From Simplicispira hankyongi (lineage in GTDB: Bacteria > Pseudomonadota > Gammaproteobacteria > Burkholderiales > Burkholderiaceae_C): a stretch of 64,000 nt of DNA. Made by a program: the position numbers and the translations under genes. Positions 2,866-54,056 of the stretch are shown one piece after another. The notes beneath the pieces were generated by a model. It worked only from the letters and a program-made list of their open reading frames with translations. It did not search any database and was not told where the DNA came from. How positions within the stretch are numbered: position 1 is the stretch's first letter; every line of letters starts with the position of its first letter. The stretch covers positions 868,001 to 932,000 of the forward strand of contig NZ_QXJC01000003.1 of NCBI RefSeq assembly GCF_003570885.1, in the 5' to 3' direction.

Positions 2866-4343
<1,478 letters not shown>

Positions 4344-4391: not shown

Positions 4392-4907
4392 ATGACGCCC
4401 GCACCCGCCCCGCTGCGATGGCTGCTTACCAGCCTGCGCACTCTGGCCGTCTGGCTACTGGCCCTGCTGGTCCTGTTCGAGGAATGGGGCTGGGAGCCCT
4501 TGCAGCGCCTGCTCGCGCGCATCGGCCGGTGGCCCGGTCTGCGCTGGGTGGAAGGCCGGGTGCGCGCGCTGCCGCCCTGGGCGGCGCTGGCGGCGTTTGG
4601 CGTCCCCACGCTCTTGCTGCTGCCCACCAAGCTGTTGGCGCTGTGGGCCATCGGAAACGGCCAGGTGCTGCTGGGCACGGCCGTGGTGGTTGCGGCAAAA
4701 ATCATCGGCACGGCCGTGGTGGCGCGCCTGTTCACCTTGACGCAACCGGCGCTGATGCGCCTGGCCTGGTTTGCCACCCTGTACCTTCGCTGGATCGCTC
4801 TGAAAACTGCACTGCTGGCGCGCGCCCGCACCTCCTGGCCCTGGCGAGCAGCGCGGGTGCTGCGGCAGCGCATGCGACGCTGGTGGCGGCGCACGCACCC
4901 AGAGTGA
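4392..4907 (+). CDS. Conserved hypothetical inner-membrane protein
   Basis: 171 aa; no named family recognised. Two or three hydrophobic segments are visible: residues about 12-30 (LAVWLLALLVLFEEWGW), 64-82 (ALAAFGVPTLLLLPTKLLAL) and 88-105. A strongly basic tryptophan/arginine tail follows (RQRMRRWWRRTHPE), which by the positive-inside rule should be cytoplasmic. It lies 48 bases downstream of tgt on the same strand and may be co-transcribed. A link to queuosine is not supported by anything else. Confidence 0.75.
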   Translation: MTPAPAPLRWLLTSLRTLAVWLLALLVLFEEWGWEPLQRLLARIGRWPGLRWVEGRVRALPPWAALAAFGVPTLLLLPTKLLALWAIGNGQVLLGTAVVVAAKIIGTAVVARLFTLTQPALMRLAWFATLYLRWIALKTALLARARTSWPWRAARVLRQRMRRWWRRTHPE

Positions 4908-4920
4908 ACTGCCTGAGGCT

Positions 4921-6024
4921 TCAGCTCGGAATCGGCGGCACTGGTGGCACGGGGACCGCTGCTGCCGGCGCAGTCGCAACGGCCGCAGCACGCCCGGCAC
5001 CCACCCCGCAGGCATGGCAGAACTTCGCAAACGCACTCTTGCGCGTGTTGCAGGCGCCGCAGCGGTCAAACAAACCGATACCGCAGTGCGGGCAGAAGTC
5101 GATCTTTTCGTTCTTCAAATCCACCGGACGCTCGCAGCCGGGACAGACGCTTTTGGCCAGGCGGGCCAGAGCCACGTCGTAGCTCAATTCCTTGCGTCGC
5201 TCCTGGTCCGGCAGGGCTTCGGCGAGTTTTTGCCGCTCCAGGTAGCGGTTGAGGGCCAGGATGGCGTAGCGCCCCACCAGCGCGGTTACCGCAATGCCCA
5301 CCACGTAACGCACGTAGCCGCCGTAGCTCGGCAGGTAGGGCACGAGCTCGACAAAGAAGGCGAACAGAGCGAAAAAGATGAAGCCCCAGACGAAGGGCCA
5401 GTAGGTGCCCTTGCGCTTTTTCACAAACAGCCAGCCGGCCACAACGAGCAGCGGCAGGGTCAGCGCCAGCCGGTAGAGGAACACACGCATTTCCACGCGC
5501 CGCATTTCCTCATTGAGCTTGGCGCGGGCCGCGGTCTCCATGCTGTCGAGCTGCTTTTGCGTTTGCGCTGCCGCCTGCCGTGCGTCCAGCGCCGCTTGCT
5601 GCTGCGCCTCGACGGCGCGCTGCTGGGCCTGTTCGGCGCGCTGCTGTGCGTCGAGCGCACGGGTGCGGGCGATGACTTCGGGGTCTTGCTCGGATCGCTG
5701 GGTCACGCTGCGCGTGGCCAGCCAATTGTTGAAGCTCTCGCGCTGGGCGCGCGTTTCGCTGCGCGCCTTGCTGCGCTGGAGCTGCGCCTGGGCCAGGGCG
5801 CTGTCGGCGGCCTCGGCCGCACTGCGCTCGCCGCGCAACTGCTCGCGCAGCCGCTGGGCCGCCGGCTGGTTCAGAAAGTTGTCGAGCGCCAGCGGCGTCT
5901 CCACCTTGGGCAGGTCGCCCACGATGGTGCCGCCCAGGCCGATCAGGAAGCTGGCAAACACCAGCGCCACCAGCCACAGGCCACGGCGAAACCATTTTTC
6001 CGACAGGCGCAGGGATTTGCTCAT
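4921..6024 (-). CDS. Membrane protein with coiled coil and C-terminal zinc ribbons
   Basis: 367 aa. An N-terminal membrane helix (about residues 14-33) is followed by a long Ala/Gln/Arg-rich coiled coil (about 60-175). Two further membrane helices follow near 180-245, then a cytoplasmic region with paired CxxC knuckles (CPGCERP, CPHCGIG, CGACNTR, CHACGVG) expected to bind two zinc ions. It ends in an Ala/Pro-rich tail. The architecture is visible but I know no function for it. It could be a membrane scaffold with a protein- or nucleic-acid-binding zinc domain. The start has CAGGAAAACG upstream. It converges with the gene at 4392. Confidence 0.8.
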   Translation of the reverse strand: MSKSLRLSEKWFRRGLWLVALVFASFLIGLGGTIVGDLPKVETPLALDNFLNQPAAQRLREQLRGERSAAEAADSALAQAQLQRSKARSETRAQRESFNNWLATRSVTQRSEQDPEVIARTRALDAQQRAEQAQQRAVEAQQQAALDARQAAAQTQKQLDSMETAARAKLNEEMRRVEMRVFLYRLALTLPLLVVAGWLFVKKRKGTYWPFVWGFIFFALFAFFVELVPYLPSYGGYVRYVVGIAVTALVGRYAILALNRYLERQKLAEALPDQERRKELSYDVALARLAKSVCPGCERPVDLKNEKIDFCPHCGIGLFDRCGACNTRKSAFAKFCHACGVGAGRAAAVATAPAAAVPVPPVPPIPS

Positions 6025-46221: not shown

Positions 46222-46378
46222 GGCAGCGGGGAGATCAGCAAGCGGCGGCGCGGGCAGCAAGCCCCGCCGCGGATGTTGAATGTAGCAGCCGCACCTTGGT
46301 ATCGACGCGGACGGCCTTTTGGCGACAATGGCCCACTGCGGGACCACCGGCCCAGGAAAACCAGGACACGCCTTCACG

Positions 46379-49807
<3,429 letters not shown>

Positions 49808-49820
49808 GGGGGACTCCTCC

Positions 49821-50660
49821 ATGCCCCACCGCGAACGCAGCAAGACGTTGGACATCGAGCAGCGGCTCCTGATCGACGCCATCTACCTGCGCTACCACTA
49901 CGACTTTCGCTCCTATGCCCAGGCGTCGCTGTGCCGCCGTCTGAATGCGGCGCTGGCGCGGTTCCAGTGCAAAACCCTTTCGCAGCTGCAGGACCGCGTG
50001 CTGCACGAGCCCGACGTGTTTGCCGGCATGCTTGACTACCTGACGGTGCAGGTGAGCGACATGTTCCGCGACCCCGACTACTTTCGCGCGCTGCGCGAGC
50101 AGGTGCTGCCGCATTTGCACACCTACCCCTTGCTCAAGATCTGGGTGGCGGGCTGCAGCACGGGCGAAGAGGTGTATTCCCTGGCCGTTCTGCTGCAGGA
50201 AGCCGGGCTGCTGGAACGCACCTTCATCTACGCCACCGACATCAACGCCAAGGCCCTGCAAGCCGCAAGTGCCGGCGTGTTCGACGTCGAGCGCGTGCCG
50301 GCTTTCTCGCAGAACCACGCCGCCTCGGGCGCCGTGACCTCGCTGTCGGACTACTACACCGCCGCCTACGGACGCGTGGTGTTCCACAAATCGCTGCGCG
50401 ACCACATGGTGTTCTCGGACCACAGCCTGGCGACGGACAGCGTGTTTTCCGAAGTGCACCTGGTGTCGTGCCGCAACGTGCTGATCTATTTCGAGCGCGC
50501 GTTGCAGGACCGCGCCCTCGGGCTGTTTCGCGAGGCCCTGTGCCAGCGTGGTTTTCTGGGCCTGGGCAGCAAGGAATCGCTGCGCTTTTCTACCCAGGCC
50601 GACGCGTTCGAGGACTGCGTTCCGCTGCAGTGCATCTACCGCAAGAAGGCTTTGGCGTGA
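49821..50660 (+). CDS. CheR-type protein-glutamate methyltransferase
   Basis: 279 aa. N-terminal CheR helical domain (IYLRYHYDFRSYAQASLCRR) and SAM-dependent methyltransferase domain with motif VAGCSTGEEVYSLAVLL (about 109-125), VSDMFRDPDYF, ATDINAKALQ and VHLVSCRNVLIYFE. It would methylate glutamates of a receptor-like protein or act as a regulator. Located 13 nt after the hybrid kinase and overlapping the cheB remnant by 4 nt (GTGA). No flagellar or Mcp gene is nearby. Confidence 0.9.
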   Translation: MPHRERSKTLDIEQRLLIDAIYLRYHYDFRSYAQASLCRRLNAALARFQCKTLSQLQDRVLHEPDVFAGMLDYLTVQVSDMFRDPDYFRALREQVLPHLHTYPLLKIWVAGCSTGEEVYSLAVLLQEAGLLERTFIYATDINAKALQAASAGVFDVERVPAFSQNHAASGAVTSLSDYYTAAYGRVVFHKSLRDHMVFSDHSLATDSVFSEVHLVSCRNVLIYFERALQDRALGLFREALCQRGFLGLGSKESLRFSTQADAFEDCVPLQCIYRKKALA

Positions 50661-50884
50661 ACACCTCCACCCGGACTTTCGAGGCCATTGCCATCGTGAT
50701 AGGCGGCTCTGCCAGCGCCGTTGATCAGGCCAAGGGCCTGTACCTCGTGCAAGCGCCCGACAGCGCCTCCTCGCCCACCATGCCACGGGCTGTGCTGTCA
50801 CGGATCCCGCAGGTTCCCTATGTCCTGAGCCCTGTGGCGATGGCCGAAACCCTCACCCGACTGCATACCCGAGGATTGCTGTGA
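50657..50884 (+). pseudogene. Internally deleted CheB methylesterase (75 aa)
   Basis: The frame from GTG 50657 reads FEAIAIVIGGSASAVD, the start of a CheB methylesterase domain. It then jumps directly to QAKGLYLVQAPDSA, SPTMPRAVL and VLSPVAMAETL, which match the last third of CheB. About 110-130 central residues, including the catalytic His and Asp, are missing; only the Ser region remains. There is no stop or frameshift: it begins within the cheR stop (GTGA) and ends within the next start (GTGA), so it is still readable and coupled. It is either a decaying gene or a retained spacer peptide. Confidence 0.75.
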
Positions 50885-52026
50885 AACGATCTGCCAATCT
50901 GGATGCGCAAGTCGCGGCACCGATCAAGTGCCTGATCGTCGACGACATTGCCGAGAACCTCGTTGCCCTCGAAGCCTTGCTGCAACGGGACGACCTGCTG
51001 GTCCTCAAGGCACAGTCAGGTGCCCAAGCCCTGGAGTTGCTGCTCGAACACGACGACATCGCGCTCGCGCTGCTCGATGTGCAAATGCCCGAGATGACCG
51101 GTTTTGAATTGGCCGAGATAATCCGCGGGCGCGAACGCACGCGCCACATTCCTCTGATTTTCGTGACCGCGGGCACACAGAACAGTGACTGGCAGTTCAA
51201 GGGTTACGACGCCGGAGCAGTGGATTTTCTCTACAAGCCTATTGATCCCCATATGCTGCTCAGCAAGGTGGAGGTGTTCTTCACGCTGCACCGCCAGAAG
51301 CGCACGTTGGCGCGCGAACTGGCCGAGCGCACGGAGGCGCTGCGCATCAACGAAATGTTCATGGCCGTCTTGAGCCACGACCTGCGCACGCCGCTGACCT
51401 CGGTCACCCTGGCATCGGGCGCGCTGGTTCGCGCCTGCACGGACAAAAAGAACGCGGCGCTGGCGGGCCGCATCCTGTCCAGCGCGCGGCGCATGGACGG
51501 CATGATCGAAAACTTGCTCGACCTCACACGCATTCGCCAGCATGGGGGCCTGAGCCTGCATCCGGGTCCACTCGATCTGGGCGAACTGTGCGCACGCGTT
51601 GTCGAGGAACTGCGGGACCACGGCACCCGAGAGGTGGTGCTCAGCAGCGCGGGCGTGCTTTCAGGTTCCTGGGACGGTGACCGCCTGGCCCAGGTGCTGA
51701 CCAACCTGCTTGGCAATGCGCTGCGGCATGGCGCAGCCGATCAACCCATTGGTCTGCACCTGGACGGCACCCACACGAGCGCCATTCGCATGGAGATCAG
51801 CAACGGTGGTTGCATCCCTGCCGACCTGCTGCCGCTGCTGTTCACGCCATTTCGCAGTAGCGCAAGCAAAGGGGGGCGCCGCGATGGACTGGGACTGGGC
51901 CTGTACATCGTGCAGCAGATCGTCACGAGCCACGGCGGCGGCATTGCAGTGCACAGCGCGGACGACCACACCCGCTTTACTGTGACGCTTCCGCGAAACA
52001 CTGGATCGTCGCCGCCCAGCCGATGA
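50881..52026 (+). CDS. Receiver-histidine kinase fusion
   Basis: 381 aa, soluble. N-terminal receiver (CLIVDDIAENLVALEALL, Asp in ALLDVQMPEMTG, Lys in FLYKPI), HisKA with phosphoacceptor in FMAVLSHDLRTPLTS, and HATPase (LTNLLGNALRHGAADQ, GLGLGLYIVQQIVTSHGG). GTG start overlapping the cheB remnant by 4 nt. Receiver-first kinases of this sort typically take phosphate or regulatory input from an upstream hybrid kinase. Converges with the lone response regulator. Confidence 0.9.
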   Translation: MKRSANLDAQVAAPIKCLIVDDIAENLVALEALLQRDDLLVLKAQSGAQALELLLEHDDIALALLDVQMPEMTGFELAEIIRGRERTRHIPLIFVTAGTQNSDWQFKGYDAGAVDFLYKPIDPHMLLSKVEVFFTLHRQKRTLARELAERTEALRINEMFMAVLSHDLRTPLTSVTLASGALVRACTDKKNAALAGRILSSARRMDGMIENLLDLTRIRQHGGLSLHPGPLDLGELCARVVEELRDHGTREVVLSSAGVLSGSWDGDRLAQVLTNLLGNALRHGAADQPIGLHLDGTHTSAIRMEISNGGCIPADLLPLLFTPFRSSASKGGRRDGLGLGLYIVQQIVTSHGGGIAVHSADDHTRFTVTLPRNTGSSPPSR

Positions 52027-52031
52027 ATGGA

Positions 52032-52394
52032 CTAATCGGCGCTGAGTGCCTGCTCAATCTCCCGCAGCAGAGCGTCGAGCTGTTCCAATTCAAACGGTTT
52101 GAGCAGCGTGCGCACATGCGGCCCCCAGGCCTGCGCATGCTTGCCCAGCTCGTAGCCCGAGCACAGCACCACCCAGCGGTCCGGGTTCCTGGTCAACAAC
52201 TGGTGCGCAAACTCGATCCCAGAGAGTCCGGGCAAACTCACGTCGGTCACCACCACATCGAAGGGGGTCTGCACGTCCTGCGCCATGCCCTGCTCTGCAC
52301 TTTCGCACAGCACCACCGAGCGCCCTTCGCCCTCCATCAGCATGCCGATGGTTTCACGCAGATCCTCATGGTCTTCAACGTACAGAATTCGCAT
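52032..52394 (-). CDS. Single-domain response regulator
   Basis: 120 aa CheY-like receiver only. ILYVEDHEDLRETIGMLMEG (acidic pocket), phosphorylatable Asp in VVVTDVSLPGLSG and Lys in TLLKPFELEQL. No output domain, so it acts by protein contact or as a phosphate shuttle. It is encoded on the opposite strand, five bases from the end of the receiver-kinase gene, and is a likely partner of that operon. Confidence 0.88.
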   Translation of the reverse strand: MRILYVEDHEDLRETIGMLMEGEGRSVVLCESAEQGMAQDVQTPFDVVVTDVSLPGLSGIEFAHQLLTRNPDRWVVLCSGYELGKHAQAWGPHVRTLLKPFELEQLDALLREIEQALSAD

Positions 52395-52492: not shown

Positions 52493-53011
52493 CTACTCCT
52501 CCAGCAGCGAGCGCAACATCCAGGCAGTCTGCTCGTGCACCGTCAAGCGCTGGGTGAGCAGGTCGGCCGTGGGCTCGTCGCCCACCTTGTCGGCCAGCGG
52601 GAACAGCTCGCGTGCCGTGCGCGCCACCGCCTCATGGCCCGTCACCAGCACACGCACCATGTCCAGTGCGCGCGGTGGCGTAGCGGGTGCATCGGGCAGG
52701 CTGGCAAGCTTGCCGAACTGGGCGTAGGAACCCGGCGCCACATGGCCGAGCGAGCGGATGCGCTCGGCAATCGGATCCACCGCGTTCCACAACTCGGTGT
52801 ACTGGCCCATGAACATCAGGTGCAGGGTGTTGAACATCGGCCCTGTGACATTCCAATGGAAGTTGTGCGTGGTCAGGTACAGGGTATAGGTGTCCGCCAG
52901 CAGGTGCGAAAGGCCTTTGGCAATGCCGGCGCGGTCTTTCTCGGAAATACCGATGTTGATGCGCGGCACGGCGGCGGTTTTGTCGGTGGATTTGGCGGGT
53001 GCTTTGGCCAT
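52493..53011 (-). CDS. dps: Dps-family DNA-protecting ferritin-like protein
   Basis: 172 aa. Ferroxidase motif [20 protein letters not shown] with downstream [20 protein letters not shown], the inter-subunit iron site of Dps dodecamers. Lys/Ala-rich N-terminus ([15 protein letters not shown]) fits DNA binding. ATG 53011 has CAAGGAGAACCCA upstream. A TATAGT box at 53058-53053 may be its -10. Lies directly downstream of oxyR, which activates dps in other bacteria. Confidence 0.93.
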
Positions 53012-53066
53012 TGGGTTCTCCTTGATGGTGTTAAGAACAGTCACTTTGGTCCACTATAGGCCGCAT

Positions 53067-54032
53067 TCAGGTGAGGCGTTTGACGCCGGGCAAGCCACAG
53101 GCCACCACCGCATTGCGCAGCGCAGCAATCGCCTCGTAGCGCGTGAAGCTGCGCCGCCACACCAGCACCACGCGGCGCGTGGGCGGGGCGCTGCCGTCGG
53201 GCTCGACGATGGGCAGGTAGCGGATATGCGGGTCATCAGCGTGGCGCCGCCGGGGGGCGCTGGTCAGCGCCGCATCCGGCACGGCCAGGCGCGGCACCAG
53301 CGTCACGCCCATGCCGGCGGCCACCATGTGCTTGATGGTTTCCAGCGATGAGCCTTCAAAGCGCTTGTGGATGCCGTCGCCCTGTGGAGCCACCCGAGCA
53401 AATTCCGGGCACACCTCCAGCACATGGTCGCGAAAACAGTGGCCGGCGCCCAGCAGCAGCACATGCTCGTTCTTCAGCTCCTCGGTGCAGACCGATTCCT
53501 GCTGCGCCAGCGGGTGCTTGCCGGGGACCGCCGCCAGAAACGGCTCGTCGTACAGCGGCGCACTGGCGAGGCCCGCATCGGGAAACGGCTCCGCCAGGAT
53601 GGCGCAATCGATCTCGCCGGTGCGCAGCATTTCCAGCAATTTGACGGTGAAGTTCTCTTGCAGGATGAGCGGCATCTGCGGCGTGCGCTCAATGACGCTG
53701 CGCACCAGCTCAGGCAGCAAATAGGGACCGATGGTGTAGATCACCCCCAGGGTGAGCGGCCCGCTCAAAGGGTCTTTGCCGCGCAGCGCAATCTCTTTAA
53801 TAGCCGCCGCCTGCTCCAGCACCGCCTGCGCCTGGCGCACGATCTCTTCACCCAGCGGCGTTACCGAGACGTCCCCCGCGCTGCGCTCGAAGAGCTTGAG
53901 ATCGAGCTCTTCTTCCAGTTTCTTGACCGCCACCGACAGCGTCGGCTGCGAGACATGGCAGGCTTCTGCCGCGCGCCCGAAATGGCGCTCGCGGGCGACG
54001 GCGACGATGTATTTGAGTTCGGTGAGGGTCAT
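53067..54032 (-). CDS. oxyR: Hydrogen peroxide-sensing LysR-type regulator OxyR
   Basis: 321 aa. LysR HTH (LTELKYIVAVARERHFGRAA, CHVSQPTLSVAVKKLEEEL) and a C-terminal sensor domain. The redox pair is at C199 and C208 (GAGHCFRDHVLEVCPEF), the same numbering as in E. coli, so it should form the peroxide-sensing disulfide. Upstream of dps on the same strand. ATG 54032 has no strong Shine-Dalgarno. Confidence 0.94.
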   Translation of the reverse strand: MTLTELKYIVAVARERHFGRAAEACHVSQPTLSVAVKKLEEELDLKLFERSAGDVSVTPLGEEIVRQAQAVLEQAAAIKEIALRGKDPLSGPLTLGVIYTIGPYLLPELVRSVIERTPQMPLILQENFTVKLLEMLRTGEIDCAILAEPFPDAGLASAPLYDEPFLAAVPGKHPLAQQESVCTEELKNEHVLLLGAGHCFRDHVLEVCPEFARVAPQGDGIHKRFEGSSLETIKHMVAAGMGVTLVPRLAVPDAALTSAPRRRHADDPHIRYLPIVEPDGSAPPTRRVVLVWRRSFTRYEAIAALRNAVVACGLPGVKRLT

Positions 54033-54056
54033 GGGGGCAGGCAACTATCGCGGCAC

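Follow-up and report, generated by a model that had tools for sequence, protein, structure and literature searches.

The operon analyzed here very probably contains a lineage-private, in-frame cheB pseudogene: comparison with related genomes suggests that a 75-codon frame between cheR and a receiver-histidine kinase gene is what is left of cheB in a four-gene phosphorelay operon of known type. The frame runs from a GTG at 50657 to a TGA at 50884 on the forward strand of the window, by which we mean the whole 64,000-nucleotide stretch of DNA that was analyzed. The closest relative found (G011) has a complete 197-residue CheB gene at the same place, 594 bp long as against 228 bp in the window, and, judged by comparison with relatives, the middle of the gene is lost. 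Loss of cheB here is an ordinary kind of gene loss, and several other loci of this module likewise lack CheB or CheR or have a damaged copy.

The cheB remnant and its operon

The operon lies on the forward strand and begins with a hybrid sensor kinase gene (46319..49807, a 1162-codon frame with a putative start codon), the product of which carries CHASE3, GAF, HisKA and HATPase domains and three receivers and is 82-85% identical in G011, G018 and G025. This is followed by a complete cheR methyltransferase gene (49821..50660; Pfam CheR, E 4.4e-36, and CheR_N) with 92% identity to that of G011 and 87% to that of G018, by the remnant (50657..50884), and by a complete receiver-histidine kinase gene (REC-HisKA-HATPase; 50881..52026) that is 81-86% identical in G011, G018 and G025. 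The gene order is that of the cfc type (hybrid kinase, CheR, CheB, REC-kinase), with CheB present as a remnant. As the first-pass annotation had stated, a GTGA overlap of 4 nt joins the remnant to each neighbor, one between its start at 50657 and the end of cheR at 50660, the other between the kinase start at 50881 and its own end at 50884. The 3' end of the remnant (50871..50884, forward strand) also holds a Shine-Dalgarno-like GAGGA (50871-50875), putatively functional, before the kinase GTG at 50881. Dps-like and OxyR-like genes adjoin the operon on the reverse strand (52493-54044), named from best NCBIfam matches that fall under the curated cut-offs. The same genome has three further CheR and two other CheB with open frames of 369 and 357 codons; one of these CheB lies on contig C19 about 1.3 kb from a CheR, and the other is a receiver-CheB with a CheA-like kinase and an MCP-like protein as neighbors. 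In principle these could stand in for the missing esterase in trans.

The in-frame, 75-residue join of the two ends of CheB that had been proposed from the window alone is real: the remnant joins 23 codons from the beginning of a short CheB to 52 from its end. Relative to G011, 124 codons (372 bp) are missing and two codons (6 bp, Ala-Ile) have been gained in frame, a net difference of 366 bp. The gain is located at codons 10-13 (50684..50695, forward strand), which read GCCATT-GCCATC and include two codons more than G011, G018 and G025; it looks like a tandem duplication. The deletion junction (50717..50725, forward strand; GCCGTTGAT) coincides with a short direct repeat that is common to both junction sides in relatives, reading GCCATTGAT on the left side in G025 and GCCATTGATC on the right side in G011. 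A deletion between two such GCCATTGAT-like repeats, about 370 bp apart, probably removed the middle of cheB along with the catalytic His and Asp, and slippage or recombination at the repeat would have been the deletion step. The remnant is not a chance frame, because its two ends are homologous to the two ends of a single gene, which 66 of the 74 other loci surveyed have between CheR and the same kinase. Each of the seven other genus members found with the module has a full CheB in place, with the catalytic Ser, His and Asp present; these seven gave the strong matches in a DNA search of 26 genus genomes (own genome included) in which the remaining matches were short and very divergent copies would escape.

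Residues 19-66 of the remnant match positions 128-174 of the 174-position Pfam CheB_methylest profile (PF01339; E 1.3e-4) with a score of 22.2 bits, just below the 24-bit gathering cut-off, and the N-terminal part of the remnant aligns with the beginning of CheB in relatives that have the whole gene. Descent in common with PF01339 proteins is indicated by the full CheB at the same place in relatives. The first-pass annotation was correct that the catalytic His and Asp regions are gone, His43 and Asp136 (G011 numbering) both being within the deleted part, although the catalytic Ser (GGS) is retained as the only one of the three catalytic residues. In an alignment of 55 CheB sequences (L201, at a contig end, was excluded), Ser16, His43 and Asp136 are each found in 55/55. 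So is the Gly two residues past the catalytic Ser (Gly18), which is Ser in the window. Because catalytic residues are missing, the peptide would be without esterase activity. A search for a conserved small protein family to which the frame might belong found none: none of the 398 other genomes sampled from the order held a relative matching all 75 residues (E 0.001; a sample only), there was no NCBIfam match, and no such protein occurs among the 74 loci. AlphaFold2 run on the single sequence, a weak test, gave a poor fold with one C-terminal helix and a mean pLDDT of 50.5.

Substitution pattern and the open frame

Changes on the branch leading to the window were counted by parsimony over the 73 comparable codons of the remnant, the two inserted codons having been removed beforehand and 14 ambiguous sites left uncounted. 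With G018 and G025 as outgroups, nine amino-acid-changing and no silent changes were assigned to the remnant (9:0), and with a single outgroup the counts were 9:1 (G018 only) and 11:2 (G025 only). The other three genes together gave 87:100 on the same branch, made up of 54:69 for the hybrid kinase and 16:16 for the receiver-histidine kinase (both outgroups) and 17:15 for cheR (outgroup G018 only), and the remnant differs from them with Fisher P values of 0.0013, 0.007 and 0.003. On the G025 branch, where CheB is complete, these codons show 5:11. These numbers are small and the species is represented by one strain; within that scope the pattern fits a loss of constraint, as would be seen after purifying selection had ceased. 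The remnant and G011 differ over the 73 codons by nine silent and 17 amino-acid differences. Under neutral drift a somewhat less extreme count than 9:0 would be expected (P ~0.04-0.06), a possible hint that simple drift is not the whole explanation. Across the operon (46319-52026), silent-site distances place the hybrid kinase nearer G025 and the second kinase nearer G011. Such different nearest relatives of neighboring genes suggest recombination within the operon, which may blur the branches.

Two observations count against a pseudogene: the frame has stayed open, and the remnant shows little drift. The absence of a stop, to which the first-pass annotation had drawn attention, carries little information, since the probability that the remnant stays stop-free after 9 to 30 random changes is 0.80 to 0.45. 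We also considered the open frame as a sign of selection and rejected it, given that only about 2.5% of single changes create a stop.

Survey of related loci and weighing of explanations

Loci were collected using the downstream kinase as the key (E <= 1e-60), which was found in 58 of 399 family genomes, 13 of 399 order genomes and 3 of 369 class genomes, all of these being samples. After repeats were removed and genus loci added, 74 other loci were read (7 from the genus, 56 from the family and 11 from the order or class). CheR together with a CheB carrying the catalytic Ser, His and Asp was present at the 66 loci already mentioned, so that a full CheB at this place is the rule among relatives and the in-frame deletion leaves the CheR of the window without its operon partner, as had been concluded from the window. 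Three loci have CheR without CheB (L195, L209, L211), and no recognizable cheB remnant was found in the reading frames inspected there. Four have neither gene beside the kinase (L186, L207, L208, L210) and may represent different operons, the kinases of the last three being about 40% identical; one more is cut by a contig end. The CheR-only loci were counted without a tree, and the counts imply no direction of change between loss of CheB and its original absence. One of the 66 is a mirror image of the window: in the genus member G025 (L035; G025:C1:1156500-1164500, positions 4590-5101), cheB is complete and cheR is broken: 1 nt is missing near codon 52, which shifts the frame, and a further 327 bp have been lost from its interior at a GTTCGA repeat. 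The cheR frame stops there about 290 nt before cheB, with the cheB and kinase frames open.

Gene order was also examined at 20 of 80 named loci, L212 and L213 being read besides. Hybrid kinase, CheR, CheB and kinase occur in this order at eight of the 20 (L046, L047, L049-L054). Another three, of the Alcanivorax type, contain both CheR and CheB, arranged differently (L088, L096, L097), and at the two Alloalcanivorax loci L096 and L097 the receiver that matches that of the window kinase sits between CheR and CheB. A single locus has CheR with no CheB match (L104), and the remaining eight have neither, most of them matching by the receiver only (L048, L093, L105, L108, L114, L122, L123, L125). 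The full order with CheB was seen in Herbaspirillum aquaticum, Xanthomonas sp. Leaf148, Massilia sp. BJB1822, Novosphingobium sp. Leaf2 (L052), Pseudomonas thivervalensis (L053) and Anaeromyxobacter oryzae.

If cheB is a pseudogene, the deletion would have kept the frame by chance and, by keeping it, would have left untouched the stop/start overlap with cheR as well as the GTGA from which the kinase starts and its ribosome-binding site; the remnant peptide would now be drifting. With both kinases and CheR complete, the operon should still signal, and CheR methylation, if any, would no longer be reversed by the operon's own esterase. Judging from the damaged cheR of another member, the methylation arm looks dispensable in the genus. 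The biofilm link of P. putida CheR1, which we take to be the CheR of the cfc cluster, is hard to reconcile with this.

Decay was one of three options left open by the first-pass annotation, and it is the one favored by the contrast of 9:0 with 87:100. Another option is that selection maintains the remnant, as a translated frame at this place would couple translation of the kinase to that of cheR and would contain the kinase ribosome-binding site. Selection of this kind is possible and not needed, and we regard it as rather unlikely. Both 4-nt overlaps and the GAGGA before the kinase GTG are intact, and such overlaps are widespread in the family, being possible at 62 of the 66 cheR/cheB junctions and 51 of the 66 cheB/kinase junctions (ATG, GTG, TTG and CTG starts counted). 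However, this is the usual, inherited layout of the family, so its survival in the window needs no new function, and any in-frame internal deletion would preserve it without selection. Operons of this kind also do without a cheB frame: in the cheB-less operon of Novosphingobium US6-1 pLA3, cheR as annotated directly overlaps the gene that follows, and at the three CheR-only survey loci CheR adjoins the kinase. The early end of the cheR frame in G025, ~290 nt before cheB, where the downstream frames are open nonetheless, likewise argues against a need for coupling. As the GAGGA of the kinase lies within the last codons of the remnant, a deletion reaching further would hurt the kinase, and this requirement may be the cause of the persistence of the 3' end. 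The third option, a 75-residue peptide with a new function, such as antagonism of CheR, appears very unlikely. It could draw on the open frame, the plausible start and the 9:0 count, which is also compatible with positive selection. The counts of 9:0, 9:1 and 11:2 and the poor AlphaFold2 fold give it little encouragement, the full-length peptide is found neither in the sampled genomes of the order nor at the 74 loci, and one of the changes hits a residue conserved in all 55 CheB sequences.

The complete CheR invites the further reading that CheR without CheB is itself functional, with one-way methylation of a partner locking the pathway. A candidate methyl-accepting helix, on sequence grounds, is the coil before HisKA in the hybrid kinase (residues 424-464), in which the Glu/Gln pairs QQEEL and NEELE are nearly invariant among 63 relatives, also where CheB is absent (L195, L211); at residue 431 the window, G011, G018 and G025 have Gln, as against Glu in 59/63. 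CheR-only operons do recur, at 3/74 loci and on two Novosphingobium plasmids. Against this, an invariant coil would be equally expected of a signaling helix, it is CheR and not CheB that is broken in G025, and the CheR of the window may be loosening too: it carries S104L and R271C at 98% conserved sites, neither change being present in G011, and its count of 17:15 compares with 6:17 on the branch of G011 (P 0.057). We know of no CheR substrate of such operons. On balance one-way methylation is improbable here, and a little more so is a broader version in which reversible methylation has repeatedly evolved into one-way methylation, CheR being kept and CheB lost, the methylated hybrid kinase fixed in one output, and the cheB remnant surviving solely as the region from which the next kinase is started. 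An assembly or sequencing error as the source of the deletion can be given hardly any credence. There is one genome per species, but the locus lies on a contig of 980,535 bases, and the remnant has substitutions and a 6-bp gain of its own, as in a real and somewhat aged allele.

Comparison with known systems

A cheB pseudogene of this kind would illustrate, clearly and on a small scale, how a gene decays within a densely packed operon, and a close relative supplies the intact gene for comparison. Together, the loss of cheB in the window and the damage to cheR in G025 offer a natural test of the roles of CheR and CheB in kinase modules outside chemotaxis. A narrow literature search found no reports of cheB pseudogenes, which does not mean that none are published, and the passages on such clusters in the papers cited below name no methylated target.

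The best-described counterpart is the cfcABCDE cluster of P. putida KT2440, in which, according to the passages on it in PMC4951495 and PMC6849547, the CHASE3/GAF hybrid kinase CfcA comes first and is accompanied by a CheB/CheR pair (cfcC/cfcB) and the receiver-containing CfcD. The window resembles it, by description only, in having a CHASE3/GAF hybrid kinase, then the CheR/CheB pair and a receiver protein, and is unlike it in that cheB is only a remnant; from the gene order, CfcD would be the REC-kinase. The lone receiver-domain protein of 120 residues encoded convergently with the operon (52032-52394, reverse strand) is a possible counterpart of the fifth gene of the cluster. The same passages state that the c-di-GMP response regulator CfcR depends on CfcA (PMC4951495, PMC6849547) and that in mutants of the other cfc genes the phenotype is retained, a result given by the authors as unpublished (PMC4951495); a title in the reference list of PMC4951495 links P. 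putida CheR1 to biofilm formation. P. putida NBRC 14671 has a REC-PAS-GGDEF-EAL protein, like CfcR, with a receiver 51% identical to that of the window kinase. No other receiver in the window's own genome is more than 40% identical to it, the best by E-value (38%) being in an HD-domain protein, so that the output may differ from that of cfc, with no close CfcR counterpart by this identity test.

A second likeness, again by description only, is to the cluster 3079-3082 of the strain in PMC8175716, given there as a hybrid kinase (3082) followed by CheR (3081), CheB (3080) and another hybrid kinase (3079). The order of kinases and CheR is the same as in the window, whereas CheB is present in that cluster. 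In the passages concerned, PMC8175716 ties the cluster to biofilm and motility in Pseudomonas and cites BmsA of Pseudomonas alkylphenolica. The Novosphingobium plasmids pLA3 (NZ_CP009292.1) and Mpl (NC_015583.1) are like the window in having a hybrid kinase, CheR and a next kinase, with no CheB match between CheR and that kinase; unlike the window, they have no visible remnant, and on pLA3 the genes meet directly by annotation. The operon of Novosphingobium sp. Leaf2, by comparison, retains CheB.
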